The position numbers and the translations under genes are program-made. Shown here piece after piece: positions 12,530 to 43,150 of a stretch of DNA of 64,000 bases (the stretch's first letter is position 1; every line of letters begins with the position of its first letter). The stretch is from Candidatus Obscuribacterales bacterium (GTDB lineage: Bacteria > Cyanobacteriota > Vampirovibrionia > Obscuribacterales > Obscuribacteraceae), in contig JAGVKB010000154.1 in the NCBI GenBank assembly GCA_020050835.1, positions 124,001-188,000 of the forward strand. The letters run 5' to 3'. The notes under the pieces were generated by a model. It did not search any database. It had not been told where the DNA came from and was given only the letters and a program-made list of their open reading frames with translations.

Positions 12530-12533
12530 TTGC

Positions 12534-12556
12534 CGGGCGATGCATGGCACCGCCCG
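12534..12556. terminator. Hairpin between convergent genes
   Basis: CGGGCG (12534-12539) pairs with CGCCCG (12551-12556), and TGC-ATG-GCA inside the loop extends the stem after one A-C mismatch. An AT-rich tail follows (ATTATTTAC). It lies in the 38-nt gap between the converging GT2 and GT-C genes, so it may act as a two-way terminator. Confidence 0.6.
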
Positions 12557-12567
12557 ATTATTTACTT

Positions 12568-26970: not shown

Positions 26971-28071
26971 CTACAGCCTGTCGACAACCGGCATCGGAAT
27001 GCCCTTTGTTGGTATCGGCTCCACATACTGCGCTTCAGGCTCAGCGACTGCTTGCACGGCTGGTGTTTCGGCGGCAACGGCCGTCAAAACTCGATACTTT
27101 ACCCGAGAGGCCAGTCCCCAGATCGCCGGACCGACCATGCCGGCGATTTGGCGCTTCAACGCGCTCGGCTGAGCGGGCGTCGGGGCGAAGTCTTCAAGGT
27201 TGCTTGGCTGCTCAATCGGCTCTGGTGCCACCAGTTCGGACAGCTCGGATTCAGCCGTCTTCATCGACACCGGCAGGTCTTCGAGATTGAGCCCTTCGCT
27301 TTGTGCTCGCTGCCAGGCCTCGAAGAACTTGCGCTGGCTCGGCACGACATCGCAACGCGACTTCTCCAACTTGCGAGCCACCACATACGTGCCGTAGAGC
27401 GCGTCGTCCAGCCCGCCGAAAGATATCTTGTCCAAACAGCCGGGAACATACTCGTAGATTTCGAACGGCAGCTCGCTCAACTCCAGGAGATGCAATCCTG
27501 GCTTGTTCTCATGCCGGAAGACTTGCAAGCGATCGATAGCATACTGGTTAGCCCAATAGTAGTCGCAAAACAGCGTAGGCGAAAAGCTATAGAACCCATG
27601 GTCGAGATAGTTCGAAGATGGCACGACGTGAATTACCCGGCCACCGACCTTCAACATCTTGTGCACGTTCTTGAGTGCATTGGGCACATGAAAAACATGC
27701 TCGATCGTGCCACCATCAATGATGACATCGAATCTACCCAGCAAGTGCTCCGGCAGCGTATCCGAGTTGAGGTCGAAGAGGTGATCCGCCTCTTCGAAGT
27801 CCGAGTAATCCATAGTTTCGGACTGCTGAAATCCGACAGACAGCAAGAACGATTCATCGCTCATGCACCCGAGCTCTTTGAGCGTCGGATGTCGATGCAG
27901 GGAGATTGCCGGCGGTTCGCTCAGCCGGAACGACACTTCGCTGGCATATCGCTTCAACGATTCGTTGCTGAAATAGATGTCCTGCCGGCCCAGCGAAAGA
28001 ACCCGTCCGCTGAACGGTCTTTCATTGCCTTCCTTCATCAGGAGTTTCGCAACTGCTTTCGGAATGCCCAC
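26971..28071 (-). CDS. SAM-dependent methyltransferase-like protein with extended tails
   Basis: 366 residues from a GTG at 28071, confirmed by AAGGAG 7 nt upstream. The core has FDVIIDGGTIEHVFHVPNAL and VGGRVIHVVPSSNYLDHGFY, motifs IV-VI of class I methyltransferases that end in a sugar-type acceptor loop. A clear GxGxG motif I is not visible in the N-terminal half (residues 1-100), so the fold is atypical, resembling proteins annotated as class I methyltransferases in glycan clusters. The last 100 residues are Pro/Glu-rich and unassigned. Last gene of the heptose-type operon, 47 nt behind the SDR gene. Confidence 0.62.
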   Translation of the reverse strand: MGIPKAVAKLLMKEGNERPFSGRVLSLGRQDIYFSNESLKRYASEVSFRLSEPPAISLHRHPTLKELGCMSDESFLLSVGFQQSETMDYSDFEEADHLFDLNSDTLPEHLLGRFDVIIDGGTIEHVFHVPNALKNVHKMLKVGGRVIHVVPSSNYLDHGFYSFSPTLFCDYYWANQYAIDRLQVFRHENKPGLHLLELSELPFEIYEYVPGCLDKISFGGLDDALYGTYVVARKLEKSRCDVVPSQRKFFEAWQRAQSEGLNLEDLPVSMKTAESELSELVAPEPIEQPSNLEDFAPTPAQPSALKRQIAGMVGPAIWGLASRVKYRVLTAVAAETPAVQAVAEPEAQYVEPIPTKGIPMPVVDRL

Positions 28072-28118
28072 TGCTTATCTCCTTTAAAACGACAGGCTGT
28101 ACAAGTTCGACTGCAGAA

Positions 28119-29108
28119 TTACGGCTGGTGAACGTACTCGAGCGAGTGTCGATTAACCTCGCTCCAATTCCCGTCAATCCACTTCACCACTTCCACCAGC
28201 CCTTCTTTCAAGGAAACTCGTGGAGCCCAATCCAACTCTTTTCTGGCTCGGGTCGAGTCAATCACGTAGGCCGCATCTTGCCCCTGACGCTCTTCGACAT
28301 CGGTGATGCAAGCAGCGAAATCACAGTTCATCAATTCCGAAATCATCTCGACGACGCAGCGCACGGAGACGCCGTCATCCGGTGACAAATGATAAATACT
28401 TCCGGGCTTACCGTTCTCCATTGCGGCGAGCTCGCCGCGAGAGATGTCCCGGATGTGGATATAGGACTTCACGGCCTTGCCACCACCATGCAAATGAATC
28501 TTCTTGCCGGACTTGATGTTGATAACCGAACGAGGAATGATCTTCCACAGCTGCTGGTGTGCGCCGTAGACGTTGGTAGAACGGATCATCACCAGTGGGA
28601 AATTGAAGTTCTTGACCATCGTGAACAGGAGCAGATCGGCAGCGGCTTTTGATGCCGCATAAGGGGTGGTCGGATTGAGCGGCGCCGACTCCAAGATTCT
28701 GCCTTCACAGGTGCCGTACACCTCCGGAGAAGAGATATGGACGTAGCGCTTCAGATAATCCCGCTTGCGCAGATTGTTCACCAACTTAGACAGAGCTACC
28801 GTATTGGTTTCGAACCAATGCTCCGGATGCTCCCAACTCGGTGCGACTTCGCTCTGCGCTGCAAAGTTGACGACATAATCCGGACGAACTGAATCCAGCA
28901 ATTCGATCAACTCAGAACTATGCTTGTTCAGGTCCAACTGGTGAAACTTGAAATTAGCCGATGCACGCCGCTTATAAGGCAGGAAAATCTCACTCTTTTC
29001 CGGTGAGCGGCTTACACCTATCACCTCATCATGATCCCGCTCTAAAAGGAGATCAACAAAATCGGCTCCGGAAAAGGAATTGCTCCCTAAAACTACGATC
29101 TTACTCAC
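28119..29108 (-). CDS. NAD-dependent 4,6-dehydratase/epimerase (extended SDR)
   Basis: 329 residues from a GTG at 29108 with AGGA 7-8 nt upstream. Cofactor motif VVLGSNSFSGADFVD is a variant of GxxGxxG. The catalytic residues lie in ISSPEVYGT, where Pro-Glu replaces the usual Ser-Val before Tyr-Gly (as the T-D-E block of RfbB and GDP-mannose 4,6-dehydratase), and in TPYAASKAAADL (YxxxK). NAAQSEV-like FAAQSEVAPSW also resembles 4,6-dehydratases. It may dehydrate the sugar nucleotide supplied by the GmhA and kinase-nucleotidyltransferase genes, as DmhA does for GDP-heptose. The Glu next to the Tyr favours dehydratase over epimerase. Confidence 0.82.
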   Translation of the reverse strand: MSKIVVLGSNSFSGADFVDLLLERDHDEVIGVSRSPEKSEIFLPYKRRASANFKFHQLDLNKHSSELIELLDSVRPDYVVNFAAQSEVAPSWEHPEHWFETNTVALSKLVNNLRKRDYLKRYVHISSPEVYGTCEGRILESAPLNPTTPYAASKAAADLLLFTMVKNFNFPLVMIRSTNVYGAHQQLWKIIPRSVINIKSGKKIHLHGGGKAVKSYIHIRDISRGELAAMENGKPGSIYHLSPDDGVSVRCVVEMISELMNCDFAACITDVEERQGQDAAYVIDSTRARKELDWAPRVSLKEGLVEVVKWIDGNWSEVNRHSLEYVHQP

Positions 29109-29117
29109 GTCAATTTC

Positions 29118-30137
29118 CTACTTTAGTTGAACCTGCTGCATTGCCTTGATGTTGAAGTAACGCACATCGCTCATTGAATCCGGCAGCTTATTAGCCTTGA
29201 AGGCATCTATCAGATCGTTTACCGCATCCTCGATCGTCCGCTTGGGAGTAAACCCAAGCTCTTGCTTGATCTTGTCCGAGCAGATTCGATAGGATCGAAT
29301 GTCCTCCGAAGGCACCTTTTCCACCAGCAACTCACCCTTTTCCGGCATCTTCTGCGCCATTACCTGCTGAACTATTTCGGCCAGCTCCCGCACTTTATGG
29401 TTCTCATAACCAGCGTTGAAGCTCTTGCCAGCGATTCGCCCGCTGTCAATCGTCAGCAACATCACGTAGAGATCCACCATATCTTCGATGTGAATATTCG
29501 GACGCATCTGCTCGCCACCGAATATGGTGATCTTGCCGTTGTTGATGGCATGATTGGTCAGAATATTGACCGTGAGATCCAGGCGCTGCCGAGGAGCATA
29601 ACCGCAGACAGTGGCCGGGCGAATGGCGACGGTGGTGAAGTCCGCTGATTGGTGCTCGAACAAAACCGGTTCGCACATACCCTTGTACTTGTTGTAATCG
29701 GTGATCGGCAAAAGCGGGTGATCTTCAGTCACATTTTCCGCCTCGCTTACGCCATAGACGCTCGAGGTCGAGGCGTAGATAAAACGTCGCACTCCGGATT
29801 GCTTGCTGATCTCTACGAGCGGGCGGAAGGCATCGTAGTTGATCGATTTACTTAATTCGGGATTGAGCTCGAAGCAGGGATCATTGGAGATGCAAGCCAG
29901 GTGAATGACTGAATCACAGCCCGGCAGGATCTCCTTCAAAAGCGCCTGGTCGCGAAGATCACCTTTGATCTCCTGCAGATTGGGATTGCCCTTAACAGAC
30001 TCCAGCACGTTATCGCCGAAGATGTACAGGTCCAAAACTTTGACTTTGTATCCTTCCTTCAGCAGTCTTGGCACGAGCGCCGAGCCGACATAACCAGCTC
30101 CACCCGTAACTAGAACGGTGCCTGCCCCTTTACTCAT
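29118..30137 (-). CDS. NAD-dependent epimerase (extended SDR)
   Basis: 339 residues. The ATG at 30137 overlaps the stop of the GmhA-like gene (ATGA), which makes the long upstream extension to 30308 unlikely. Cofactor motif VTGGAGYVGSALVPRL, then HLACISNDPCFELN, YASTSSVYGVSE and DYNKYKGMCE (YxxxK). A C-terminal substrate domain starts near IRPATVCGYAPRQRLD. The LACISNDPC signature occurs in SDRs found with sugar isomerase and heptose genes; GDP/ADP-heptose epimerase or reductase roles are possible. Ten nt before the next SDR gene. Confidence 0.83.
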   Translation of the reverse strand: MSKGAGTVLVTGGAGYVGSALVPRLLKEGYKVKVLDLYIFGDNVLESVKGNPNLQEIKGDLRDQALLKEILPGCDSVIHLACISNDPCFELNPELSKSINYDAFRPLVEISKQSGVRRFIYASTSSVYGVSEAENVTEDHPLLPITDYNKYKGMCEPVLFEHQSADFTTVAIRPATVCGYAPRQRLDLTVNILTNHAINNGKITIFGGEQMRPNIHIEDMVDLYVMLLTIDSGRIAGKSFNAGYENHKVRELAEIVQQVMAQKMPEKGELLVEKVPSEDIRSYRICSDKIKQELGFTPKRTIEDAVNDLIDAFKANKLPDSMSDVRYFNIKAMQQVQLK

Positions 30138-30763
30138 AAAGTCGCTCCTTGTCGCCTTGCGCACAGTGTATCCGTCAAATAGTGAATGAGAGCCAAATGT
30201 GACACCTCGACCGGACCGTACTTGTCCGAATCGACATAAAAATTGAGATCGCCTTCTGACAGGAGAGGGCAATCGCTCTTGAAGCCGGCCAACGTGATGA
30301 CTCCACAACCCACCGCTCTGGCAGCTTTGACTGCATTCAAGATATTGGGCGACTTACCCGAGCTGCTCACCGCAATCAGAGCATCACCCTTGTGGCAGAA
30401 CATCTCAATTGCCTTTGAATAGACGAATTCGTAACCAAAATCGTTAGCCAGACAGGTCAATTGCGCGAGATCCGTAAAGGTGATTGCCGGAATGCCTACC
30501 GCCTTTGAGAAGTCGACAGCCTGATGACTGGCGATCGCAGCGCTTCCGCCATTGCCGATCAAGGCGACTTTCTTGCCGTCAGTCCCTACTTTTGCCAACA
30601 GCTCCAGCGCTCTGTCCGTGCCTTCTTCAACAGTCAGCTTCTGGCCGTTTCTGTCAGTGGCGACTACGTTCAACAGCAGCTGGTGTAGCCGGTCGAAGTA
30701 ACGAGTGTATGCGGATGTTTTTGCGTTGGCGTCTGTCATTGCCTTTGTCAGTGTGTCAGTCAT
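30134..30763 (-). CDS. gmhA: SIS-domain sedoheptulose-7-phosphate isomerase (GmhA-like)
   Basis: 209 residues from the ATG at 30763 (a TTG at 30778 would add five). SIS fold with VALIGNGGSAAIASHQAVDF at about 70-90, where the GGSA loop binds phosphate, and VSSSGKSPNILNAVKAA for the second phosphate site. Length and motifs match GmhA, which turns sedoheptulose 7-phosphate into D-glycero-manno-heptose 7-phosphate. Related DiaA/LpcA-type SIS proteins are possible, but the adjacent PfkB-nucleotidyltransferase fusion makes GmhA by far the best fit. 27 nt behind that gene and coupled by ATGA to the SDR gene. Confidence 0.87.
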   Translation of the reverse strand: MTDTLTKAMTDANAKTSAYTRYFDRLHQLLLNVVATDRNGQKLTVEEGTDRALELLAKVGTDGKKVALIGNGGSAAIASHQAVDFSKAVGIPAITFTDLAQLTCLANDFGYEFVYSKAIEMFCHKGDALIAVSSSGKSPNILNAVKAARAVGCGVITLAGFKSDCPLLSEGDLNFYVDSDKYGPVEVSHLALIHYLTDTLCARRQGATL

Positions 30764-30790
30764 TTTAGTTGAACCCAACCCTGTTTCGTA

Positions 30791-32386
30791 CTACTTCAAT
30801 AGCGAGGTGATGAATTTGGTCAAAGTGCTGCGATTGATCGAATCCCGGTGCCCGACGGTCGAGACGGCCTGTGCCCCGACGGCGTTGCCGACGAAGCCGA
30901 GCAATTCCAGCGGTGCATTGAGAGCAGCAGCCATCGCCGTCACGGAAAGGAAAGCATCTCCGGCTCCCATTCTGTCCACCACCTGTCCGGCCACCGCCGG
31001 CACCGCGCAGAACCCCTCGTCCTCACTGTAACAGACGCAACCGCGTTTGCCGCGCGTGATTACCACTCGTTTGCTGGACAGCTTCTGTCCCAGCCGGGGC
31101 ATGATATTTGTGACATCACCGGCTCGGTCGCGTACTTCAAGCCGTAGCTCATTTTCAGTGATGCACACATAATCGGCCCGATTGTATTTGAAGATGGTCT
31201 GATACCCGAGATTGCCGGCATTGGACTGAGTATTGACCGCTAAGAATTTAGCCTTTTTACAGATCACTTCGGCCGCTCTGGGAGTAATCATGCTGTGCCC
31301 AAAGTCGACCACAATCACGGCATCATACTCAGGGACTACCTGTTCTAACTTGGCACAGAGCTTCGCATCGTCCGAATCAGTCAACTGCTGATCGTTAATC
31401 GTATAGACAGCCAAAAGCTTATGGAAGAAGTAATTGTCGATGATACGCCGCTTCACAATAGTCGGCGCATCCTGCCTGGTCAGCAGCTCAGCTCTTATCC
31501 GGTCGCTCAAGCTCGAGCGAATGAAGTCTTCTTGCGAGTCTTGCTCGCCGAGAAGACTCAACAAACCGACATTATCAGAGAAATTAGCGACATTGTTGCC
31601 GACTGCGAGAATGCCACCGGCAAATTTTTCAGACGAGATTAACCGCACCGCCAACATCGGCTCTTTGGACGATTTGCCGATCGCTTCGCAATACTGGTAC
31701 TCGTCGATTATGGCTTCACCGATCGTCAAAACCTTGAGCGGCTTCATCATGTCGAGATACTTGACGATATCGTCGACTGAGTATTTATCTGCAAAATCCT
31801 TGAGGTACTCGCTCAACTCTTTCGAGAAAACAGGCATGTGCCGGTTGATCAAGGTTGATGAGCTAAAAACTATATCGTCAGTAAACACCAATTGACCGCC
31901 CACCGATTCGACAGCAGCTTTTTCCAGCGCGATACCGCCGGTGACATCTTTCTCCGCATCTTTGTAATCAGATCCTTTGACATAGTAGTGAGGACGAAGA
32001 AATTTGATCAGTTCGACAGCCATCGGCCACTGGTTGATCGCCACGAAGTCGACGCAATTGAGCGCTGCAATCGCTTCGGCGCGCAAGGTTTCAGAAAACG
32101 CCGGGCGATGAGGACCTTTGTTGACGAATCGGTCAGGAGTCAAAGTCACTACGAGCAGATCGCCTTGTTTCCTTGCTTCTTCAAAATGCCGAATGTGCCC
32201 GATGTGCAACAGGTCGAAGACGCCGTGACAATGCACGACCTTTTGACCGCGAGCGCGAGCGGCATTGATGATGTCGGCAAGCTTCTCGAGTTCGGTAATC
32301 TTATCCTTTGTACCGGCGACAGCTGTGGCGGCCGCTCCATTCGCCTGCGCGGCGGACCCTGAAAAAGTGAAGCCTGACTGATGCAT
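30791..32386 (-). CDS. Bifunctional nucleotidyltransferase-PfkB kinase, HldE-like with inverted domain order
   Basis: 531 residues. Residues about 50-190 are a cytidylyltransferase-like domain: CHGVFDLLHIGHIRHFEEA contains the HxGH site, and YYVKGSDYKD the second motif. Residues about 210-520 are a PfkB/ribokinase-type kinase: VLTIGEAIIDEY, FAGGILAVGNNVAN (substrate loop), VITRGKRGCVCY and DRMGAGDAFLS with the catalytic Asp in the GAGD anion hole. E. coli HldE has the kinase first and the adenylyltransferase last; here the order is reversed. The predicted pair of reactions is phosphorylation at C1 of heptose 7-phosphate and then adenylylation after dephosphorylation. No GmhB-type phosphatase lies in this operon; the HAD gene at 39045 is a candidate. 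Confidence 0.87.
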   Translation of the reverse strand: MHQSGFTFSGSAAQANGAAATAVAGTKDKITELEKLADIINAARARGQKVVHCHGVFDLLHIGHIRHFEEARKQGDLLVVTLTPDRFVNKGPHRPAFSETLRAEAIAALNCVDFVAINQWPMAVELIKFLRPHYYVKGSDYKDAEKDVTGGIALEKAAVESVGGQLVFTDDIVFSSSTLINRHMPVFSKELSEYLKDFADKYSVDDIVKYLDMMKPLKVLTIGEAIIDEYQYCEAIGKSSKEPMLAVRLISSEKFAGGILAVGNNVANFSDNVGLLSLLGEQDSQEDFIRSSLSDRIRAELLTRQDAPTIVKRRIIDNYFFHKLLAVYTINDQQLTDSDDAKLCAKLEQVVPEYDAVIVVDFGHSMITPRAAEVICKKAKFLAVNTQSNAGNLGYQTIFKYNRADYVCITENELRLEVRDRAGDVTNIMPRLGQKLSSKRVVITRGKRGCVCYSEDEGFCAVPAVAGQVVDRMGAGDAFLSVTAMAAALNAPLELLGFVGNAVGAQAVSTVGHRDSINRSTLTKFITSLLK

Positions 32387-32448
32387 AGCCTAAATCCCTT
32401 TGACTCCGTCTTTGCCTGCGACTTTGTACTCTTCCGACACCGCTGTCC

Positions 32449-33462
32449 CTAAACTCCGACCGTCTCACCCAGATAGTTGAACCATTGCTTGGTTGCTTCG
32501 GCAATTGACTGCTGATTCCAAACCGGAGCATCACGCCAGTCATTGATGTGCTCGAGCATCACCGCAACACCTTCGTCGAACCCGACCTTCGGTTGCCAAC
32601 CAAGCACTTGCTTGATTTTGGTGATATCGGCGTAAGTGCAATCCGGCTCACCGGGACGTTTGGGGATATATTGCCTCTCTCCGCCCAGAAGGTCGACGAG
32701 CCGGTTGACGCTGTAGGTTCCACCAGAGCCGACATTGAAGATTTCGCCGGTTAGATTCGACTCAACGGCAGTCACGAACGCATCCACTACGTCGCTAACA
32801 AAGGTGAAGTCTCTGGTCTGACTGCCATCACCAACGATGGTAAACGGCCTGCCGGCCAGCTTCTGCGCCAGAAAGACGCCGAAGACGGCACCATAGGCAC
32901 CAGTTGTGCGCGCCCGCGGTCCATAGACATTGATCAACCGCAAGGAGAGGCAAGGAAGCTTGTAGACTTGCTGCCAGTGCATGACATAACACTCGGCGAG
33001 GTACTTTGTTAATGCATACGGATACTCAGCCTTAATCGGTGCCGATTCCGGCGTGGGAAATTGCTTGGCCAACCCGTAGCATGATGACGATGCTGCGTAA
33101 ATAAACCGTTTGACGCCGGCCGCGCGCGCGCCTTCTAGTACCGCGATTGTTCCGTCGACATTAGAGCGATGATATTCGAGCGGTTGCTCGATCGACGGCA
33201 CGATATCGGCCAGAGCTGCCAGATGGAAGACCCAATCAACGCCGCTGAAAAGCTCTTTAATGGCGGCGGCATCAGCGATATCGACTTGGTGAACCGCCAG
33301 GCGTGGATGGTCGGAAAGATGCTTGAGATTCTTCGGATGGCCGGACGAGAAGTTGTCCAGAACGACAACGGAATGCCCGTCGGACAGCAGCCTGTCCACT
33401 AAGTGACTGCCAATGAAACCAGCTCCGCCGGTCACCAAACATCTCCGGGATCGATTTTGCAC
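32449..33462 (-). CDS. NAD-dependent UDP-sugar epimerase (extended SDR)
   Basis: 337 residues from the GTG at 33462, with AGGGAG 8 nt upstream; a TTG at 33522 without a good site is rejected. Cofactor loop VTGGAGFIGSHLVD, LDNFSSGHPKN, FHLAALADIVPSI, catalytic AASSSCYGLAK, YPYALTKYLAE (YxxxK) and LRLINVYGPRARTTG. The pattern is that of UDP-GlcNAc/UDP-Glc 4-epimerases (WbpP/GalE type), including the Ala-Asp-Ile loop. First gene of the six-gene heptose-type operon. An ADP-heptose epimerase (HldD) function is possible, but HldD's characteristic motifs are not evident. Confidence 0.85.
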   Translation of the reverse strand: MQNRSRRCLVTGGAGFIGSHLVDRLLSDGHSVVVLDNFSSGHPKNLKHLSDHPRLAVHQVDIADAAAIKELFSGVDWVFHLAALADIVPSIEQPLEYHRSNVDGTIAVLEGARAAGVKRFIYAASSSCYGLAKQFPTPESAPIKAEYPYALTKYLAECYVMHWQQVYKLPCLSLRLINVYGPRARTTGAYGAVFGVFLAQKLAGRPFTIVGDGSQTRDFTFVSDVVDAFVTAVESNLTGEIFNVGSGGTYSVNRLVDLLGGERQYIPKRPGEPDCTYADITKIKQVLGWQPKVGFDEGVAVMLEHINDWRDAPVWNQQSIAEATKQWFNYLGETVGV

Positions 33463-33616
33463 TTCAGAAACTCCCTGTCCCTTATGACCGAAACCAAGAA
33501 ACCCGCTGGAGAAATCACACAAGCTTCGCCGTCGCGAAACGCTTAAATCAGCAACTCTCCAGGCTGGGTCCTGAAACAGCCGTGAGGACTATAGCAGCGC
33601 CCACCCCTCTTTGCAT

Positions 33617-34951: not shown

Positions 34952-36106
34952 TTGGATCTATTTAAGCCCGCCCAACCTCAAAGCCAAAGACTGCTCGAAT
35001 TTCCGCCCCATCAAAACTTAGGGCGGCTCTACTATTCGACCGCTCGCGGCTATGCCTTCCTGGACTATGCAATTGGTACAATTTCTGTCCCAAACGGACT
35101 GTCGCTGGTACTGCGCGTCGACTCTCACGTGTCAACGCTGTCGCCGCTGAGCAGTATCCAACCAGATGCCTTCGACTTACTATCGCTGGCACACACGAAT
35201 CTAAGCAATGACGAGCTGCGTCACCTCTCCAATCTAACCGGTCTCAAAGCGCTATTGCTCGATTACACGAGGTTGACCGGTCAAGGGCTGAAATGGCTTC
35301 AGAACATCACACCGTATTTCCTGAGCAGCCGGATGACTCTCTTTTCGGACGAAGGAATGAAGCTACTACCGGCCCTGTCGTCGCTGACATGCTTAGACCT
35401 TTCTGATTCCAGGATTACCGATCTCGGCATGGCCAATCTGGCTGACTTGAAGCACATTGACAGCCTCTCGCTATGGGAAAATCGCATCTCCAGCAAAGCG
35501 GCATTAACGCTGGGTTCAATGAAATCTCTGAAAACGCTCTGCCTGGGCGGTACCATATTTGGTGACGAAGGAGCAAGTTGCCTGCAATCGCTCGATCTGC
35601 TAACCACACTTGAACTGCCGAGAACGGCTATCACCGACAAAGCGCTCGGGCCGCTGGCACTCATCCCAAACCTCGCAGAGCTGGGACTTTCCAGCAATAG
35701 AATTTCAGACGGGGGGATACGTGCGCTTTTAAAATGCCGCACCTTGCGCAAGATTACGCTCGCCCGCACGGCCGTCACGGACGAAGCAATGTTTTATCTG
35801 ACCGAGCTTCCGGCTTTGGAAGAGCTGGACCTGTCGAGCACTGAGCTTACGGACCGGTGCATACCGAGCATTTGCAACATGCCGTCCCTAAAACGAATCA
35901 CACTTCATGAGACAAAGATAAGCCCGGCGGCAGCCGAGAGGCTGCAGCAGCAATGCCCGGCCCTGACAGTTAGCTGGATGCCGTTGATTCGCTCAGCAGT
36001 ACCGCCGCAGCTAGCCGGCACTCCGCTCAATCTGCCTAATTGCGCTGAACCGGAAAGCGTGCGAGCCGCCGATTCTAAAAATGAACCAATCGGAGTTTCA
36101 GCCTGA
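34952..36106 (+). CDS. Leucine-rich-repeat protein (ribonuclease-inhibitor-like repeats)
   Basis: 384 residues from a TTG at 34952; no earlier or better start and no clear ribosome binding site, so the start is weakly supported. Residues about 75-345 consist of about eleven LRRs of 24 residues with the pattern LxxLxLxxTxITDxGLxxL (for example LDLSDSRITDLGMANLA). No signal peptide or membrane helix is evident, so the protein is probably cytosolic. Repeats of this kind bind proteins; many are found in planctomycete-like and cyanobacterial-relative genomes. It is the only gene in the window without an obvious sugar role. It might scaffold the enzymes or be a regulator, but no function can be assigned. 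Confidence 0.75.
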   Translation: MDLFKPAQPQSQRLLEFPPHQNLGRLYYSTARGYAFLDYAIGTISVPNGLSLVLRVDSHVSTLSPLSSIQPDAFDLLSLAHTNLSNDELRHLSNLTGLKALLLDYTRLTGQGLKWLQNITPYFLSSRMTLFSDEGMKLLPALSSLTCLDLSDSRITDLGMANLADLKHIDSLSLWENRISSKAALTLGSMKSLKTLCLGGTIFGDEGASCLQSLDLLTTLELPRTAITDKALGPLALIPNLAELGLSSNRISDGGIRALLKCRTLRKITLARTAVTDEAMFYLTELPALEELDLSSTELTDRCIPSICNMPSLKRITLHETKISPAAAERLQQQCPALTVSWMPLIRSAVPPQLAGTPLNLPNCAEPESVRAADSKNEPIGVSA

Positions 36107-36177: not shown

Positions 36178-37074
36178 ATGGAACTCGGATTGACCGCCGG
36201 CACTCGCGAGAGTGCACCGGTTTTTGAGCATTGCGGGCTCAACCGGCTGGGCATTGCTCCTACAGATGCGGAGTACGACGCGCTTTGCCGCCGGATTCGA
36301 GGCAAGGTGCTGGAGCTTTCACACCGCGCTAAGACTCCGCATCTCGCCTCGGCGTTCTCCTGCGTGGAGCTCGTTGCAGTTTTGCTGGGAAGCATCGTTA
36401 AGATGTCGCCGGACAACCCATACGATCCGAATCGCGACCGGTTTGTCTTCAGTAAAGGCCACGCTGCTACAACTCTCTACACGACTCTTTCGACCTTCGG
36501 CTTCTTCCCCGAATCAGTGCTGGACACCTTCGGCACCGCCGGCAGTACACTAGCCGAACAACCGAGCCCACGCTGCCAGCCCGGCGTAGAAGCTGCTACC
36601 GGGTCACTCGGGCACGGGCTGTCGCTCGGCTTGGGAATGGCGCTTGCCAGCAAGATCAAGGAGCAATCGTTTCGAACATTCGTTTTGATGAGCGATGGCG
36701 AGTGCAATGAGGGCTCGGTCTGGGAAGCAGCGATGTTGGCTCCGGCCCAACGTCTGGACAATCTGGTGGCAATTATCGACTTCAACAAATGGCAGGCAAC
36801 CGGTCGAAGCCAGGAGGTTATGGCCCTTTCTCCGCTCAAGCAGAAATGGGAAGCGTTCGGTTGGAGCGCCTACGAAATAGACGGCCATAACACACAGGAG
36901 ATCTTGTCGGTTTTAAGCAAAGTTCCGGACGGATCGGGACGCCCCGTGGCAGTAGTGGCCAACACTGTCAAGGGCAAGGGCGTCTCATTCATGGAAGACG
37001 ACAACAATTGGCACTACCGAATTCCCTCTGAAGAGGAGCTGCTCGCCGCTCGCAAGGAGCTTGGATTGATATGA
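36178..37074 (+). CDS. Transketolase, N-terminal (TPP-binding) subunit
   Basis: 298 residues, about half a full transketolase, which matches two-subunit transketolases. The TPP/Mg site is SDGECNEGSVWEAAM (GDG...NE pattern, D and N ligands) near residue 175-190, preceded by the His-containing FSKGHAATTLY and LGHGLSLGLGMA. The N-terminus has an extra 20 residues before the conserved start. Site AGAGGG precedes the ATG. Acts with the next gene product to transfer a two-carbon ketol group between phosphosugars or, in biosynthetic clusters, onto an activated aldehyde sugar. Not the housekeeping enzyme: it is inside a glycan operon and coupled by ATGA overlap to its partner. Confidence 0.9.
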   Translation: MELGLTAGTRESAPVFEHCGLNRLGIAPTDAEYDALCRRIRGKVLELSHRAKTPHLASAFSCVELVAVLLGSIVKMSPDNPYDPNRDRFVFSKGHAATTLYTTLSTFGFFPESVLDTFGTAGSTLAEQPSPRCQPGVEAATGSLGHGLSLGLGMALASKIKEQSFRTFVLMSDGECNEGSVWEAAMLAPAQRLDNLVAIIDFNKWQATGRSQEVMALSPLKQKWEAFGWSAYEIDGHNTQEILSVLSKVPDGSGRPVAVVANTVKGKGVSFMEDDNNWHYRIPSEEELLAARKELGLI

Positions 37075-38006
37075 GAAATGCTTTTGCCTCTGAGCTGACA
37101 ACAATTGCCGGACAAAACAAAGATGTCGTTCTTTTATCCGGTGACATCGGAAACAAGCTCTTCGATAAGTTTAAAGAAGCAGCGCCCAAGCGATTCTTCA
37201 ATTGCGGTGTGGCGGAAGCAAATATGATTAGCGCCGCCGCCGGGATGGCGATGTGCGGTTTGCGACCGGTCGCTTATACGATTACACCATTCATCACCTC
37301 CCGCTGCTACGAACAGATCAAGATCGATCTTTGCTATCACAACGTGCCGGTGGTGGTGGTCGGAGTCGGAGCTGGACTCAGCTACGCATCGCTGGGAGCG
37401 ACTCATCAGTCCTGCGAAGACATCGCCATTTTGCGAGTGCTTCCTCACATGACGGTCATCTGCCCCGGTGATGCTCACGAGGTGCGCTCAGCGCTGCGTG
37501 AAGCGCTCAAGATCGATGGACCTGTCTATATCAGGCTCGGCAAGAAAGGTGAACCGCTCGTTCATCCCTGCCAGCCGGAGTTCAAAGTCGGACGAGGCAT
37601 TGTCGTCAAAGAAGGATCCGATGTCTGCATTTTGAGCACCGGCAATATGTTGCCGACCGCTGTAGAATGCGGAGAAGAGCTTACACGGCGACAGATTTCA
37701 ACCAGAGTGGTCAGTTTGCATACGGTCAAGCCTCTCGATGAGCAGCTTCTCGCCGAGGCGTTTTCCAGCTACTCGCTGGTGGTTACGCTGGAAGAACATT
37801 CACTGGCTGGTGGACTGGGAGGCAGCATCGCCGAATGGCAAAGCGACAGAATCGGTTTGAAGGCCCGGCTCTTACGGTTTGGAACTGCTGACGCGTATCT
37901 GCATGAATCCGGCAACCAGAAGTATGTCCGACAGCATTTCGGTCTAACCAGCGACAGCATCGTGGCACGCATTGCAGAGACTCTTTCGGAGCAAGCGGGA
38001 AGATAG
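37071..38006 (+). CDS. Transketolase, C-terminal subunit
   Basis: 311 residues, partner of the preceding gene (ATGA overlap). Pyrimidine-binding domain: FNCGVAEANMISAAAGMA contains the catalytic Glu that activates TPP. Then GAGLSYASLGATHQSCEDIAI is the characteristic substrate-loop, and the C-terminal domain follows from about residue 180 (VCILSTGNML, VVTLEEHSLAGGLG). The two halves together equal one transketolase active site at the subunit interface. One nt separates its stop from the dehydrogenase ATG. Confidence 0.9.
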   Translation: MRNAFASELTTIAGQNKDVVLLSGDIGNKLFDKFKEAAPKRFFNCGVAEANMISAAAGMAMCGLRPVAYTITPFITSRCYEQIKIDLCYHNVPVVVVGVGAGLSYASLGATHQSCEDIAILRVLPHMTVICPGDAHEVRSALREALKIDGPVYIRLGKKGEPLVHPCQPEFKVGRGIVVKEGSDVCILSTGNMLPTAVECGEELTRRQISTRVVSLHTVKPLDEQLLAEAFSSYSLVVTLEEHSLAGGLGGSIAEWQSDRIGLKARLLRFGTADAYLHESGNQKYVRQHFGLTSDSIVARIAETLSEQAGR

Positions 38007-38007
38007 C

Positions 38008-39048
38008 ATGAAAACACTGGCAGCAATTCTCGTTGAAACAGGCAAGCCGCTAGTTTTACAAGAGATCGAAATCCCTCAGCTCAAACCCGGGCAAGTATTG
38101 GTCGAGATCAAAACCAGCGGTGTCTGTCACACGCAGGTCTCCGAATGTCGCGGTCATCGGGGCAAAGATGCCTATCTACCGCACTGTCTCGGACACGAGG
38201 GCAGCGGTGTCGTACTGGAGGCCGGAGCGGGAGTGACGAGAGTTAAGTCCGGCGACCGAGTTCTGCTCTCCTGGATGAAAGGCGCCGGAGCAGATGTTCC
38301 TGGCACCGTTTATCAGTCCACGCTCGGCAACGTCAACGCCGGCGGCATCACCACATTTAGTCAGCACGCAATCGTCAGCGAGAACAGACTGACCGTCCTT
38401 CCTTCCCGAATTGCTTTTAGCGAAGCAGCGATTCTCGGCTGCGCTGTTCCAACCGGGATTGGCGCTGTGATGAACACCGCCCAAGCCAAGCCCGGGCAGT
38501 CGGCCGTTGTATTCGGCGTCGGCGGCATCGGACTCTGCGCAGTTGCCGGGGCTGTAATTGCAGGCTTAAGTCCGGTCGTAGCTGTCGACTTAAAACGCGA
38601 GAAGCTAGAAACGGCAAGACTGCTTGGAGCGACTCACGGCATCGAAGCGAACGGAAATGATGTTGTAGCAGCGCTCAAAGACATTGTCAAAGGTGGATTC
38701 GACATTGCAATTGAAGCGAGCGGGCGCCCGCAGGCGATGGTCCAAGCGCTGCAAGCAGTGCGCAATCAGGGCGGCGTAGCGGTCATACTGGGAAATGCTC
38801 GTTTTGGTGAATCGCTGAGCATCGACCCGCGCGAACTCAATAACGGCAAACAGCTTAGAGGCAGCTGGGGCGGTGACAATCAGCCGGAACGAGATTTCCC
38901 TCGCTACTTCGATTATCTGGAAGGCGGCAAGCTGAACGTCGAACCGCTGTTGTCCAAGACCTACAGCTTGACCGAGATCAATCAAGCGATTGATGACCTC
39001 GAGAGCGGCAAGGCGGTAAGACCAATAATCGAGATGTCGCAAGGATGA
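38008..39048 (+). CDS. Zinc-dependent alcohol dehydrogenase (MDR family)
   Basis: 346 residues from the ATG at 38008, 1 nt after the transketolase stop; an earlier in-frame start (37972) overlaps it. Catalytic zinc ligands: Cys of SGVCHTQ, His-Glu of LGHEGSG, as in zinc ADHs. The four-Cys structural zinc loop is missing (the region reads SWMKGAGADVPGTVY). Rossmann motif VVFGVGGIGLCAVAGA at about 165-180 and VDLKREKLETA acidic end of beta-2 indicate NAD(H). A role in reducing the ketose made by the transketolase to an alditol or alcohol, in the way TarJ reduces ribulose 5-phosphate, is plausible but not shown. Confidence 0.87.
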   Translation: MKTLAAILVETGKPLVLQEIEIPQLKPGQVLVEIKTSGVCHTQVSECRGHRGKDAYLPHCLGHEGSGVVLEAGAGVTRVKSGDRVLLSWMKGAGADVPGTVYQSTLGNVNAGGITTFSQHAIVSENRLTVLPSRIAFSEAAILGCAVPTGIGAVMNTAQAKPGQSAVVFGVGGIGLCAVAGAVIAGLSPVVAVDLKREKLETARLLGATHGIEANGNDVVAALKDIVKGGFDIAIEASGRPQAMVQALQAVRNQGGVAVILGNARFGESLSIDPRELNNGKQLRGSWGGDNQPERDFPRYFDYLEGGKLNVEPLLSKTYSLTEINQAIDDLESGKAVRPIIEMSQG

Positions 39049-39662
39049 TCGTCGGCATAGACTTTGATAATACGATCGTTAGCTACGATCAGATCTTTCA
39101 CACAGAGTCTCTGGAGCGCGGTCTGATTTCACTGGATGTTCCGGCACGCAAGGATGCCATAAGAGATTATCTTCGCAAAGCTGCCAAGGAAGATCTTTGG
39201 ACCGAGCTTCAAGGGTATGTTTATGGACCTGGAATCGGCGGAGCTCTGCCATTTCCAGGAGTACTCTCCTTCTTCGAGCACTGCCGTGCGGCCGGAATCA
39301 AGACTTACATAATCAGTCACAAAACAAAACTCCCCTACGCCGGGCCAAGATACGATCTGCATGCGAGCGCGCTGGGCTGGCTGTCAGCGAACAATTTTTT
39401 AGATTCAGCCAGCACCGGTCTTGAAATAGCCGATGTGTTCTTCGCAGCCACTAAGCAAGAGAAGGTTCAGCTAATTCAAAGGAACCATTGCTCCTACTTC
39501 ATTGATGATCTGCCGGAATTTCTCCAGGAGATTGCTGCATCGAATGGCATTGAAAGAGTTCTCTTCGATCCCAATAATGTCCATCTCGACGAAGAACGAT
39601 TCGTCCGGCTGACTTCCTGGAGAGCAGTTGCGGATTTAATTGTGGGGGAATTGGTGCAATGA
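39045..39662 (+). CDS. HAD-superfamily hydrolase (phosphatase-like)
   Basis: 205 residues, translationally coupled on both sides (ATGA overlap at each end). HAD motif I is GIDFDNTIVSYD (nucleophile first Asp), motif II the Ser in IISHKTK, motif III the Lys in AATKQEKVQLI and motif IV FIDDLPEFL (Asp-Asp). The 60-residue cap between motif I and II is helical. Most such enzymes remove phosphate from sugar phosphates. In this operon it could act on a transketolase product, or supply the missing GmhB-type step of the heptose operon. Its coupling to a kinase gene just downstream suggests the two act on the same or successive intermediates. Confidence 0.82.
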   Translation: MIVGIDFDNTIVSYDQIFHTESLERGLISLDVPARKDAIRDYLRKAAKEDLWTELQGYVYGPGIGGALPFPGVLSFFEHCRAAGIKTYIISHKTKLPYAGPRYDLHASALGWLSANNFLDSASTGLEIADVFFAATKQEKVQLIQRNHCSYFIDDLPEFLQEIAASNGIERVLFDPNNVHLDEERFVRLTSWRAVADLIVGELVQ

Positions 39663-40711
39663 CGGACGCTTCTCTGCGGGAGACGTCATGGAAATTGCTC
39701 GCCAAAGAGGGGTTCGCTAAGGACTTCACTGTCGAGCTGTTAAAAGGCGGAAAGAACAATCGCGTCTACCGCGTGGCCTCCAGCGAGAAGGTCGCCTTGC
39801 TCAAAGCATACTTTCGCCATCCAGGCGATCCAAGAGATCGTTTCAGCACTGAGTTCAACTTCTCTTTATTTGCCTGGTCAAACGGACTTAGCTGCATTCC
39901 AAAACCGTTGCACGGTTGTCAGGAATCAGGCTTGGCATTATATGAATTCGTTGACGGAGAGAAACTAACTGCAAGCAAGCTATCAGCAGATGCAGTGCGG
40001 GCCGCCCGGGGCTTCTTCAAAGAGTTGAACAGTCACCGCTTAAGTCCACAAGCGACCGAACTTCAGCCGGCATCTGAAGCGTGTTTCAGCCTTGCTTCGC
40101 ATATTCAGCTAGTTGACCAACGGGTAAGTCGGCTGCTGGCTGCGTCGAAACAGAGCGCTCTTAGCCCCGAGGCCGAGGAATTCGTACATTCCAAACTTGC
40201 CAAGACTTGGGCGCTGGTCTCTGCCAGCACCAGCAAGTTAATCCGACAACTCGACCTGCCTTACGCAGTTGAGCTTGCACCAGACAGCCGGAGACTATCT
40301 CCGTCCGACTTTGGCTTTCACAATGCGCTTCGCCGCTCATCGGGACAGATCTGCTTTCTCGACTTTGAGTATTCCGGATGGGACGACATCGCCAAGACAA
40401 CTTGCGACTTCTTCCTGCAACCGGCCGTTCCGGTGCCGGCAGAATTTTTCAATGATTTTGTCGAGGAATTGCTTGAAGATTTTGCAGACAGACATCTGGA
40501 GAGAGAGCGCATCCGAGTGCTGCTTCCTGTCTATCACGTGAAGTGGGCATGCATCCTCATGAACGACTTTCTTCCGGTCGGAGGGATACGCAGAGGCTTT
40601 TCGTTAGGATTGGAAGAAGACCAAGAGCGCAGAATTGAGCAGCTCCGGCTGGCAGAGGCGGTATTAAAACAGGTTGAATCAGCCGAAGAACGCTACTTTT
40701 GCCGGGCCTAA
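39659..40711 (+). CDS. Aminoglycoside-phosphotransferase (APH/choline-kinase) family kinase
   Basis: 350 residues, start inside the HAD stop (ATGA). Kinase features: glycine-rich GGKNNRVYRV (about 30-39), the Lys in ALLKAYF (about 50), hinge LYEFVDGEKL, a catalytic loop SPSDFGFHNA at about 214-223 in place of HGDxxxxN (Asp and Asn kept, first His replaced by Ser-Pro-Ser), and the metal motif FLDFEYSGWDD at about 234. Members phosphorylate small-molecule hydroxyls such as choline, aminoglycosides, homoserine, fructosamines or sugars. In this operon the substrate should be a small sugar or polyol made by the transketolase and dehydrogenase. The HGD-to-PSD change in the loop is unusual. Confidence 0.83.
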   Translation: MTDASLRETSWKLLAKEGFAKDFTVELLKGGKNNRVYRVASSEKVALLKAYFRHPGDPRDRFSTEFNFSLFAWSNGLSCIPKPLHGCQESGLALYEFVDGEKLTASKLSADAVRAARGFFKELNSHRLSPQATELQPASEACFSLASHIQLVDQRVSRLLAASKQSALSPEAEEFVHSKLAKTWALVSASTSKLIRQLDLPYAVELAPDSRRLSPSDFGFHNALRRSSGQICFLDFEYSGWDDIAKTTCDFFLQPAVPVPAEFFNDFVEELLEDFADRHLERERIRVLLPVYHVKWACILMNDFLPVGGIRRGFSLGLEEDQERRIEQLRLAEAVLKQVESAEERYFCRA

Positions 40712-40776
40712 TTAACCGCTCAACAAACATTCGAAGTAAGGTAATTTCGATTAGCAAGGAGAGTTATCAATCAGCC

Positions 40777-41439
40777 ATGGGACACATCGACTTCCTTTCC
40801 TCTGTTCACAAAAGCACCAAGCGCGATTATCTCGCTCGAGTAAACGAGTTTCCCAAAGCGCAAGCAGCAACGTTAGCCAAGAAATTCGACCTGGACTACT
40901 GGGACGGCAGCCGCCAGACCGGTTATGGTGGCTATAAATACGACGGTCGCTGGCGCTCAGTAGCCGAGGACATAGCCAAACATTACAACCTTAAGGCCGG
41001 CGACAGCGTGCTCGATGTCGGATGCGGCAAAGGCTTCTTGCTCTACGAGCTGGGACAGGCAGTGCCCGGACTAGAACTAGCTGGCATCGACATCTCGGAA
41101 TATGCAATCGAAAATGCCAAAGCGGAGGTGCGCGGCAATCTTAAGGTCGCGTCAGCAGCCAAGCTTCCTTACCCGGACAAGTCGTTCGATCTGATCATCT
41201 CAATCACCACGCTGCACAATCTCTATTGCTTCGATCTGTTCAAGGCGCTCAAAGAGATTGAGCGAGTCGGCAAGAAGAACAAGTACATCTGCGTCGAAGC
41301 CTACCGCAATGAAGAGGAGAAGGTAAACCTCCTTTATTGGCAGCTCACTTGCGAAATGTTCTGTACACCCGAAGAGTGGGACTGGTGGTTCGAACACACC
41401 GGTTACACCGGGGACTATTCGTACATCTACTTCGAGTGA
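40777..41439 (+). CDS. Class I SAM-dependent methyltransferase
   Basis: 220 residues from the ATG at 40777, with AAGGAGAG about 13 nt upstream; an open extension to 40699 overlaps the kinase gene and is not conserved-looking. SAM motifs: VLDVGCGKGFLLYELG (motif I), ELAGIDISEYAIENAK (acidic motif), KSFDLIISITTLHNL (motif IV). The N-terminal segment (YLARVNEFPKAQAATLAK) and Tyr-rich C-terminus resemble sugar or small-molecule methyltransferases. Only 65 nt behind the kinase gene, so probably the end of the operon starting at 36178. Confidence 0.86.
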   Translation: MGHIDFLSSVHKSTKRDYLARVNEFPKAQAATLAKKFDLDYWDGSRQTGYGGYKYDGRWRSVAEDIAKHYNLKAGDSVLDVGCGKGFLLYELGQAVPGLELAGIDISEYAIENAKAEVRGNLKVASAAKLPYPDKSFDLIISITTLHNLYCFDLFKALKEIERVGKKNKYICVEAYRNEEEKVNLLYWQLTCEMFCTPEEWDWWFEHTGYTGDYSYIYFE

Positions 41440-41599: not shown

Positions 41600-43150
41600 A
41601 TGATTAAAGAGCAGAGCGCAGGCTCGATCGAAAGTTTTCTGGAGAGCGATATCCCGAGCGAAAGGATTCGTCCCTCGTCTCCATCGCTTCTCTTAATCCG
41701 CAAGATAGTAAGAAAGCTCAAGAGACTGAGCGGCTTCGAGCAAGCTGGACCCAAGCTAAGAGAGATTGTTCAACTTAACGAACAACAATTGGCTAACTCG
41801 CTCTATCTTGGGATTCAATACTTGTATGAAGCAGGCGTGGCCGGAGAGATAGCCGAGTTTGGAACGCTTACCGGCAAGAGCAGCGCCGTTCTCTCTAATG
41901 CAATTTTGCAGTATGACCAGCGATTTGCCGCTACCGGCGACAAGCGGTTTCTGGCTAAGCAATTGCTCCTGTTCGACACATTCAAGGGCTTACCGCCGCT
42001 GGAATCAACGGTTGATTATCTCTCGCCGCATGTTCAAAGCGGGCTCTGGGGTCCACACACCAACCTTGGGCTGGACAGGGAAAGCCTACGAAAGCTGTGC
42101 GAAAGACACCTTTCACCAGAGCGTGTTCAAATTCAGGAAGGTCTCCTTAGAGATACGATCAAGAGCCTACCTCCTCAGACGAAGCTAGCCTTCGCACATA
42201 TCTGCTGCAAGTTGTATCAACCCACCGTAGAGGTAGTCGAATACCTGCTTACCAACGGTCTGCTGGCAGAAGGAGCGGTCCTCTACTTCAGCGACTGGAA
42301 TCCCAATCATGCCTCGCCGGAGCTTGGCCAGCGCAAAGCCTGGGCGCAACTAGTCGACAAATACAACGTTTCCTTTAGTGACTGGGGCGCATTCGGCTGG
42401 AGCGGGCAAAGATTCATCATTCACTCTTACGCTCGCGCTCCGAAATGGGTACCACCCTGGCACATGATTGCACCGTCGGAGAGTGAAGATGAGGTGTTAA
42501 GAGAGCTCCAGTTCGGCGTCGAATATGTTTGCGGCGCCGATGTGCCCGGGGAGATCGCCGAGTTCGGCACATTTACCGGCCGCAGCGCGTCGGCGATCGC
42601 AGCTGCCATTTCAGATTGGGATCGCTCGAAGCCGAGCGCCGATGGCCAGCATAACAATCAAAAGGTGCTAATGCTTTTCGACAGCTTCGAGGGTCTGCCC
42701 GAATCTGAATCTGAGATTGACCGAGACTCCCCTCACGTAAAGAGTGGTGTCTGGGGTCCTGGGCTATGCCAGCTCCTGAGCATGGACGGACTGCGAGCTG
42801 TTTGCGAACAATTCATCGACGCTGACCGGGTCATGCTTTTTAAAGGCTGGTTTAAAGATACGGTGCCGAAAATCAAACCCGGCACGAAATTTGCCATGCT
42901 GCATGTCGACTGCGATCTCTATCAATCGACGATTGATTGCCTGGAGTTCATCCTGGCTAACGGAATGCTGTCCGAAGGTGCGGCTGTATTTTTCGACGAT
43001 TGGAATCCCAACCGAGCTTCTCCCAGACACGGTGAACGCAAAGCGTGGTCCGAACTGGTCGAAAGATATTCCATCGACTTCAGCGATTGGGGTTCTTACG
43101 GCTGGAGCGGCAAAAAGTTCATCGTCCACTCCTATCAAGCCTCCCGCTAG
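41600..43150 (+). CDS. Tandem TylF/MycF-type O-methyltransferase, two domains
   Basis: 516 residues holding two copies of the TylF fold (about 45-275 and 295-514). The C-terminal copy is complete: GEIAEFGTFTGRSASAIAA (SAM loop), FDSFEGLPESE, AMLHVDCDLYQST with metal/base Asp residues near 435-437, and VFFDDWNPNRAS near 464. The N-terminal copy keeps the fold (GEIAEFGTLTGKSSA, FDTFKGLPP) but has HICCKLYQPT and YFSDWN, so the DxD and the first Asp of DDW are lost. The second domain should methylate a sugar hydroxyl Mg2+-dependently (macrocin methyltransferase family). The first domain is probably inactive, perhaps used for dimerisation or for substrate binding. Confidence 0.9.
   Translation: MIKEQSAGSIESFLESDIPSERIRPSSPSLLLIRKIVRKLKRLSGFEQAGPKLREIVQLNEQQLANSLYLGIQYLYEAGVAGEIAEFGTLTGKSSAVLSNAILQYDQRFAATGDKRFLAKQLLLFDTFKGLPPLESTVDYLSPHVQSGLWGPHTNLGLDRESLRKLCERHLSPERVQIQEGLLRDTIKSLPPQTKLAFAHICCKLYQPTVEVVEYLLTNGLLAEGAVLYFSDWNPNHASPELGQRKAWAQLVDKYNVSFSDWGAFGWSGQRFIIHSYARAPKWVPPWHMIAPSESEDEVLRELQFGVEYVCGADVPGEIAEFGTFTGRSASAIAAAISDWDRSKPSADGQHNNQKVLMLFDSFEGLPESESEIDRDSPHVKSGVWGPGLCQLLSMDGLRAVCEQFIDADRVMLFKGWFKDTVPKIKPGTKFAMLHVDCDLYQSTIDCLEFILANGMLSEGAAVFFDDWNPNRASPRHGERKAWSELVERYSIDFSDWGSYGWSGKKFIVHSYQASR

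Follow-up and report, generated by a model that had tools for sequence, protein, structure and literature searches.

A conserved split-transketolase gene cassette as a candidate route to an unusual nucleotide-activated sugar in Candidatus Obscuribacterales

The window analysed here is a stretch of 64,000 nucleotides (nt) from the 7.0 Mb draft genome of a Candidatus Obscuribacterales bacterium, and its operon at positions 36178-41439 encodes a split transketolase (tktN and tktC), a zinc-dependent alcohol dehydrogenase (ADH), a phosphatase (HAD), a small-molecule kinase (APH) and a methyltransferase (MT). Comparison with related loci makes it very probable that these genes belong to a dedicated and conserved nucleotide-sugar cassette. 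With a probability of about 40%, the cassette would represent an undescribed, thinly but widely spread route to a methylated nucleoside diphosphate sugar (NDP-sugar) that is two-carbon-branched or chain-extended, in which the acceptor of the split transketolase is oxidised and carries no phosphate, and in which the oxidant is, depending on the lineage, one of three unrelated enzymes. An earlier note on this DNA had read the operon as a dedicated route to an unusual sugar or polyol within a glycan island. The dedicated character of the route is borne out by the conservation of the cassette and by the presence of the split transketolase in addition to a housekeeping enzyme.

Results and Discussion

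Conservation and co-inheritance of the cassette

As the most specific member of the set, HAD was used as the anchor of a locus survey. The HAD-anchored loci span at least eight phyla, with named relatives in Obscuribacterales, Dadabacteria, Elusimicrobia, Phycisphaerae, Desulfovibrio, Mailhella, Geobacteraceae, Nitrospirae, Verrucomicrobia, Prochlorococcus and Thalassotalea; one further relative lies on a short Nanoarchaeota-labelled contig, which is perhaps mis-binned. The two nearest HAD-bearing genomes are also annotated as Candidatus Obscuribacterales. The family is rare, being present in 9 of 386 genomes of the window's phylum and in 6 of 297, 32 of 398 and 3 of 246 genomes of three other phyla. 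Among the 63 HAD-anchored loci, APH was found in 56, tktN in 52, tktC in 51, MT in 44 and a nucleotidyltransferase-kinase fusion (NTkin) in 39, followed by the epimerase-type genes epi32 (23) and epi29 (22), the isomerase gene SIS (21) and the dehydratase-type gene o28 (15); many contigs are short and these counts are lower bounds. Two gene orders were observed, tktN-tktC-...-HAD-APH-MT and HAD-APH-tktN-tktC-...-MT, each of which corresponds to a separate part of the transketolase tree. The earlier note had suggested a search for the gene set in other glycan islands and would have given up its claim had the genes not been conserved together outside the window; in the surveyed loci they are.

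MT is the most conserved member of the cassette (mean column identity 67%) and occurs in 36 of 36 HAD-positive genomes, sometimes away from the locus. In 398 proteobacterial genomes, HAD and MT were found together in 28, HAD only in 4, MT only in 8 and neither in 358 (Fisher p 1.3e-31, kinship ignored). Six of the eight MT-only genomes carry a split transketolase of the cassette family near MT, and three of the genomes also the same radical S-adenosylmethionine (SAM) enzyme, which weakens the idea that MT is exclusive to the cassette, as it adjoins a split transketolase without HAD and APH in some genomes. At the loci L158, L160, L161 and L166, the MT family is joined by a split transketolase and the radical SAM gene with no HAD or APH in the vicinity, and in one case by ADH only; the core of the cassette may therefore be smaller and consist of transketolase, oxidant and methyltransferase. 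A search of a plasmid collection gave a single match and a search of a phage collection gave none. Plasmid pDCAR1 of Solidesulfovibrio carbinolicus, a cultured sulfate reducer (L168; NZ_CP026539.1, 89904-108503), carries the order HAD-APH-tktC-MT-radical SAM; a further split transketolase and a methyltransferase lie about 7 kb 5' of the cassette.

The association also includes NTkin (30791-32386, minus strand), a fusion of a nucleotidyltransferase and a PfkB kinase with intact HIGH and GAGD catalytic motifs. NTkin was detected in 38 of 40 HAD-positive genomes and in 1 of 40 HAD-negative ones, and the two HAD-positive genomes without a match carry a more distant NTkin version at the locus. Based on this genome-wide co-occurrence, it is concluded that the minus-strand block at 26971-33522 and the plus-strand operon form one pathway in two divergent units. 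Judged from gene content, the pathway is thus larger than the five or six operon genes to which the earlier note had confined it, since it also takes in NTkin and the sugar-nucleotide epimerase/dehydratase genes of the opposite strand, and it would end in a nucleotide-activated sugar. NTkin reaches 165 of the 521 bits required by the NCBIfam equivalog for HldE. Its domains are reversed compared to HldE, where the kinase comes first: the nucleotidyltransferase motif precedes GAGD in the window and in nearly all loci. The usual HldE order was observed only in L115:16878-18416 and L117:16949-18460, while the other loci checked are reversed or lack one motif.

The split transketolase has an altered substrate site

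The N-terminal subunit tktN (36178-37074, plus strand) binds thiamine diphosphate (ThDP; Pfam Transketolase_N, 1.7e-35), and tktC (37071-38006, plus strand) contributes the pyrimidine and C-terminal domains (Transket_pyr and Transketolase_C). The best match of tktN in the Protein Data Bank (PDB) is 6yak, the N-terminal chain of the Carboxydothermus split transketolase (5e-61). His55, His95 and His279 of tktN and Glu49 of tktC, which we take to be the equivalents of the ThDP-binding and catalytic positions H26, H66, H261 and E411 of the E. coli enzyme, are invariant in the family alignments, as is found for a canonical transketolase. The sugar-phosphate/alpha-hydroxyaldehyde site of EC 2.2.1.1 (R358, S385, H461, D469 and R520) is not preserved in tktC, in which Arg2 (R358) is kept together with the catalytic Glu49. 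In an alignment of 27 members from both parts of the tree, H461 is replaced by Gly, D469 by a nearly invariant Leu and R520 by an invariant Lys, S385 is not conserved, and an invariant Tyr stands near the Gly/Leu site; the labels H461, D469 and R520 are E. coli numbers assigned by way of the motifs.

Apart from a second split transketolase, the same genome encodes a single-chain transketolase (L126) and DXS (L125). With these two enzymes at hand for central metabolism, the split transketolase at 36178-38006 is regarded as an extra one. The single-chain enzyme retains the His and the Asp (SHAGVSIGQDGPSQ), whereas the split family shows GxGxxYxxLGxTH at the same place. In E. coli transketolase, S385 touches the substrate phosphate, and changes at D469, R520 and S385 move the use of acceptors away from phosphorylated aldehydes (PMC5073344). 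Split transketolases lack a linker, offer more room and can accommodate bulky acceptors (PMC7661550).

The second split transketolase pair lies on the same contig, 22 kb past the window end and beside a GalE-like gene (L122:2051-3648; G000:C56, about 209550-211147). It is likewise devoid of the His/Asp pair (GGVEYGHNGATH), and the island may therefore run two transketolase-based sugar routes. In a locus of Verrucomicrobia LW23, tktN-tktC is present twice (L018:8110-9986 and 12524-14400).

Three unrelated enzymes occupy the oxidant slot

ADH (38008-39048, plus strand) is a zinc-dependent medium-chain alcohol dehydrogenase (ADH_N and ADH_zinc_N) that scores below every NCBIfam equivalog cut-off. 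At other loci its slot, between tktC and HAD or just after MT, is filled by a radical SAM protein (Radical_SAM) or by a match to TIGR04324, the 'sporadic carbohydrate cluster' 2-oxoglutarate (2OG)-Fe(II) oxygenase, with 295-341 bits at a cut-off of 150. Exactly one of the three enzymes was found in 38 of the 47 loci in the tree and two of them in 2 loci. Shuffling gave an overlap of 12.4 loci compared to these 2 of 47, and a value as low was reached in 0 of 20000 shuffles (2 of 20000 without near-copies). Six changes of the slot enzyme are required on the transketolase tree. In a close trio of loci, a radical SAM gene (L084), an ADH gene (L085) and an oxygenase gene (L039) each lie directly 3' of MT, and in L033 an oxygenase pair stands exactly at the position of ADH in the window.

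The oxidation of a hydroxyl to a carbonyl group is a reaction type open to all three enzyme classes, and it is probable from this exchange pattern that the swapped enzymes carry out one and the same oxidation. Since a radical SAM protein or a 2OG-Fe(II) oxygenase fills the slot elsewhere, ADH more likely oxidises than reduces its substrate, which turns around the reductase role assigned to it before.

The partner family TIGR04323 was detected in 9 of 51 genomes, all with the oxygenase at the locus. The window genome, with ADH in the slot, has no TIGR04323 and so does not show the TIGR04323/TIGR04324 signature of the sporadic carbohydrate cluster. Two radical SAM families recur at cassette loci (L095:13133-14197, L016:7135-8235 and relatives), the first adjoining tktC or MT and the second, which carries a SPASM domain, adjoining NTkin or tktN.

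HAD and APH form a coupled pair

For HAD (39045-39662, plus strand), a phosphatase of an unnamed HAD subfamily with intact catalytic motifs, no Pfam model matched at E<=0.001, and only weak HAD and NT5C matches were obtained. Profile searches of the PDB returned nothing meaningful for HAD and only weak kinase matches for APH, and structure prediction with a fold search was used for both proteins after these poor results. The AlphaFold model of HAD (predicted local distance difference test, pLDDT, 95.5) shows a HAD fold, whose best Foldseek matches in the PDB are deoxyribonucleotidase-like and other HAD proteins, and the motifs DxDxT, Ser, Lys and DD are invariant in an alignment of 16 homologues. 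The predicted fold and the motifs agree with the identification as a HAD phosphatase made from the sequence before.

APH (39659-40711, plus strand; Pfam APH) is a small-molecule kinase of the APH/choline-kinase fold. Its model (pLDDT 93.2) matches choline/ethanolamine kinase, LicA, methylthioribose kinase and NahK in Foldseek. A role as choline kinase or LicA is not indicated beyond the similar fold, as the Pfam model Choline_kinase reaches 21.8 bits compared to a cut-off of 29, and the loop is of the SPSD instead of the HGD type. The altered loop SPSDFGFHN, described correctly in the earlier note, had been taken there as a hint at a special substrate. This part of the claim was dropped: the loop is a family trait, as Ser214, Ser216, Asp217, Gly219 and Asn222 do not vary among 28 homologues, and only the HG of HGD is altered, with no change at the catalytic Asp217 and Asn222 or at Asp235, the second Asp.

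HAD and APH are nearly always neighbours and are fused in L083, L097, L102, L103 and L013. This near-constant adjacency and the fusions suggest that both enzymes act on a single substrate, one ahead of a shared step and the other behind it.

Proposed pathway

The scheme builds on what the comparison of sequences reveals, namely the cassette, its co-inheritance, the HAD-APH fusions, the swap in the oxidant slot and the altered transketolase site; the order of the steps, every substrate and the product are deduced from it. A sugar phosphate provided by the SIS isomerase or by central metabolism would be dephosphorylated by HAD, and a hydroxyl group of the free sugar would be oxidised to a carbonyl by ADH, or elsewhere by the radical SAM enzyme or the 2OG oxygenase pair. 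The split transketolase with its remodelled site could then add a two-carbon ketol unit onto this carbonyl, leading to a C-branched or chain-extended sugar. APH would put the phosphate back, probably for activation, NTkin and the epimerases would form and shape the NDP-sugar, and MT would methylate it. The coupling of HAD and APH suggests such a removal and restoration of phosphate around a free-sugar step. That the whole scheme holds, with an unusual nucleotide-activated sugar for a surface glycan made via oxidation and an altered split transketolase, has in our estimate slightly less than an even chance.

Several points weigh against this scheme. The complete loci L016 and L082 contain none of the three slot enzymes, and a non-homologous swap in one slot suggests, without proving, a single reaction; the 2OG oxygenase of the slot might hydroxylate instead. 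In tktC, R358 is retained and the exchange of R520 for Lys is conservative, so that the donor may still be phosphorylated. A further weakness of the model is that APH may duplicate the work of the NTkin kinase domain. Furthermore, genomes of the same lineage are related, and the co-occurrence counts overstate their independence.

Among the alternatives, an alditol or polyol route appears unlikely, but less so than the others. In this case, HAD would dephosphorylate a ketose phosphate from the transketolase, ADH would reduce it to an alditol and APH would rephosphorylate it, after which the nucleotidyltransferase would form a CDP-alditol. The HAD-APH coupling and the cytidylyltransferase-like nucleotidyltransferase domain would fit, and medium-chain dehydrogenases do reduce ketose phosphates in TarJ-type pathways. 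However, NAD(P)H-dependent ketone reduction is not a reaction of the radical SAM enzymes and 2OG-Fe(II) oxygenases that replace ADH, the PfkB sugar kinase to which the nucleotidyltransferase domain is fused is typical of aldose-1-phosphate activation, and the transketolase departs from the usual form at its sugar-phosphate site. Consequently, of the sugar or polyol proposed in the earlier note, the branched or chain-extended sugar is favoured, while the swap in the ADH slot disfavours the alditol option. A little less likely still is an ordinary heptose supply, in which the split transketolase would deliver sedoheptulose-7-phosphate to SIS as GmhA, NTkin as HldE and HAD as a GmhB substitute, with APH and MT decorating the product. 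Although gmhA and HldE are the closest models for SIS and NTkin, both proteins miss the curated cut-offs by a wide margin (95.8 of 209.45 bits for SIS against GmhA), the NTkin domains are reversed in nearly all loci, and SIS is present in just 21 of the 63. Moreover, the genome already has a single-chain transketolase, the split enzyme lacks the equivalents of H461 and D469, and APH stays unexplained.

The closest folds of APH, choline and ethanolamine kinases and LicA, could also point to a non-sugar decoration, i.e. a phosphorylated amino alcohol or polyol tail that is methylated by MT and attached to the glycan. This is considered improbable, since the APH fold is common to sugar kinases such as NahK and methylthioribose kinase, a constant LicC-like partner was not found, and NTkin and sugar-nucleotide epimerases accompany the set. 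Finally, the loci are surrounded by glycosyltransferase and further sugar genes, which differ between genomes, as would be expected if independent decorating genes were brought together only through the block exchange of glycan islands. We give this very little credence: HAD, APH, TK, MT and NTkin stay together across deeply divergent versions and both gene orders, and the association holds even with MT or NTkin elsewhere in the genome. The route via oxidation and a remodelled split transketolase is therefore preferred.

Operon layout and neighbouring genes

The chain of five genes and the methyltransferase 65 nt further on, as described in the earlier note, were read directly from the open reading frames (ORFs) and their junctions, and the families given there for tktN, tktC, ADH, APH and MT agree with the Pfam matches. 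The junctions of tktN/tktC (tktC ATG at 37071), ADH/HAD (39045) and HAD/APH (39659) are ATGA overlaps. ADH follows tktC after 1 nt (ATG at 38008; the longest ORF starts from TTG 37972), and MT (40777-41439, plus strand), a class I SAM methyltransferase, follows APH after 65 nt (ATG at 40777; longest ORF from TTG 40699).

On the minus strand, SIS (30134-30778) encodes a GmhA-like sugar-phosphate isomerase, whose real start may be an ATG a few codons inward. The NAD-dependent sugar-nucleotide epimerase/dehydratase family is represented by epi29 (29118-30140; start approximate), which adjoins tktN or HAD in many loci. The GalE-like NAD-dependent epimerase/dehydratase epi32 (32449-33522) adjoins NTkin here and in many loci, and o28 (28119-29108) belongs to a dehydratase/epimerase family and resembles dTDP-glucose 4,6-dehydratase below the cut-off. 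An RmlD-like reductase (22466-23368, minus strand), the family of which occurs in 17 HAD-anchored loci, is an accessory gene of uncertain membership in the pathway. A gene for a leucine-rich-repeat protein (34952-36106, plus strand) lies just 5' of tktN between the divergent halves of the pathway. Downstream of MT, a protein with two TylF-like methyltransferase halves is encoded (41600-43150, plus strand), and a homologue was found near the same cassette in a relative (L006:2-1579).

Significance and comparison with known systems

The enzyme families and the setting of NDP-sugar genes in glycan islands are already known. In the open-licence literature no described pathway with this gene set was found, in line with the earlier note, which could not match it to a named pathway. 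If true, the proposed route would mean that surface sugars are built by a new biosynthetic logic in at least eight phyla, among them marine cyanobacteria, sulfate reducers and a large number of Pseudomonadota. It would also provide split transketolases whose acceptor sites are altered by nature, a property that biocatalysis groups have sought through engineering. Should the chemistry prove different, the cassette would still offer a well-defined and conserved starting point for studies of glycan structure, and Thalassotalea marina KCTC 42731 and Solidesulfovibrio carbinolicus DSM 3852 (plasmid pDCAR1) are available as cultured hosts.

The ADP/GDP-heptose pathway (GmhA, HldE, GmhB, HldD) resembles the cassette in its combination of SIS isomerase, sugar kinase, nucleotidyltransferase and epimerase chemistry. 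It differs by the order of kinase and nucleotidyltransferase, which is reversed in the cassette, by the scores of the window proteins below the cut-offs and by the added transketolase, ADH, APH and MT. A link to bradyrhizose was considered, as some matches come from large proteobacterial genomes, and not found: the text on its eleven-gene cluster names no transketolase (PMC4743980), and the proteobacterial loci from large genomes carry two DegT aminotransferases. In the polysaccharide cluster wps-2 of Actinoplanes missouriensis, a methyltransferase, tktN and tktC are neighbours, compared here by description, whereas HAD, APH and NTkin are not described there; deletion of wps-2 left the sporangia normal (PMC13390465).

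For miharamycin and amipurimycin, branching on a keto sugar by an oxidoreductase and a split transketolase has been proposed but is unproven (PMC12247030). The proposal serves as a precedent for the two-carbon addition assumed here. The dedicated split transketolase paired with an oxidoreductase is shared with the window, as far as gene descriptions can be likened. These compounds are Streptomyces-type secondary metabolites, in contrast to the surface-glycan island of the window. The split transketolase of Carboxydothermus hydrogenoformans (PDB 6yaj/6yak) has the same two-chain architecture and is the best PDB match for both subunits. It keeps the His and the Glu-Asp motif (HAGLTVGEDGASHQ), where the window enzyme has GAGLSYASLGATHQ, and it is the sole transketolase of its host (PMC7661550), while that of the window stands beside a housekeeping transketolase.

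A close likeness is found in the NCBI families TIGR04324 and TIGR04323, as the oxygenase adjoins the same HAD, APH, transketolase, MT and NTkin genes. The sporadic-carbohydrate-cluster names give no pathway and cover one cassette variant, whereas the window has the zinc-dependent ADH instead; papers using these cluster names were not found in the open-licence literature. Since the oxygenase adjoins the cassette and TIGR04323 occurs only in genomes with an oxygenase locus, both families mark one variant of the cassette. The two orphan families are thereby tied to a concrete set of enzymes, and would receive a role if the proposed pathway is correct.

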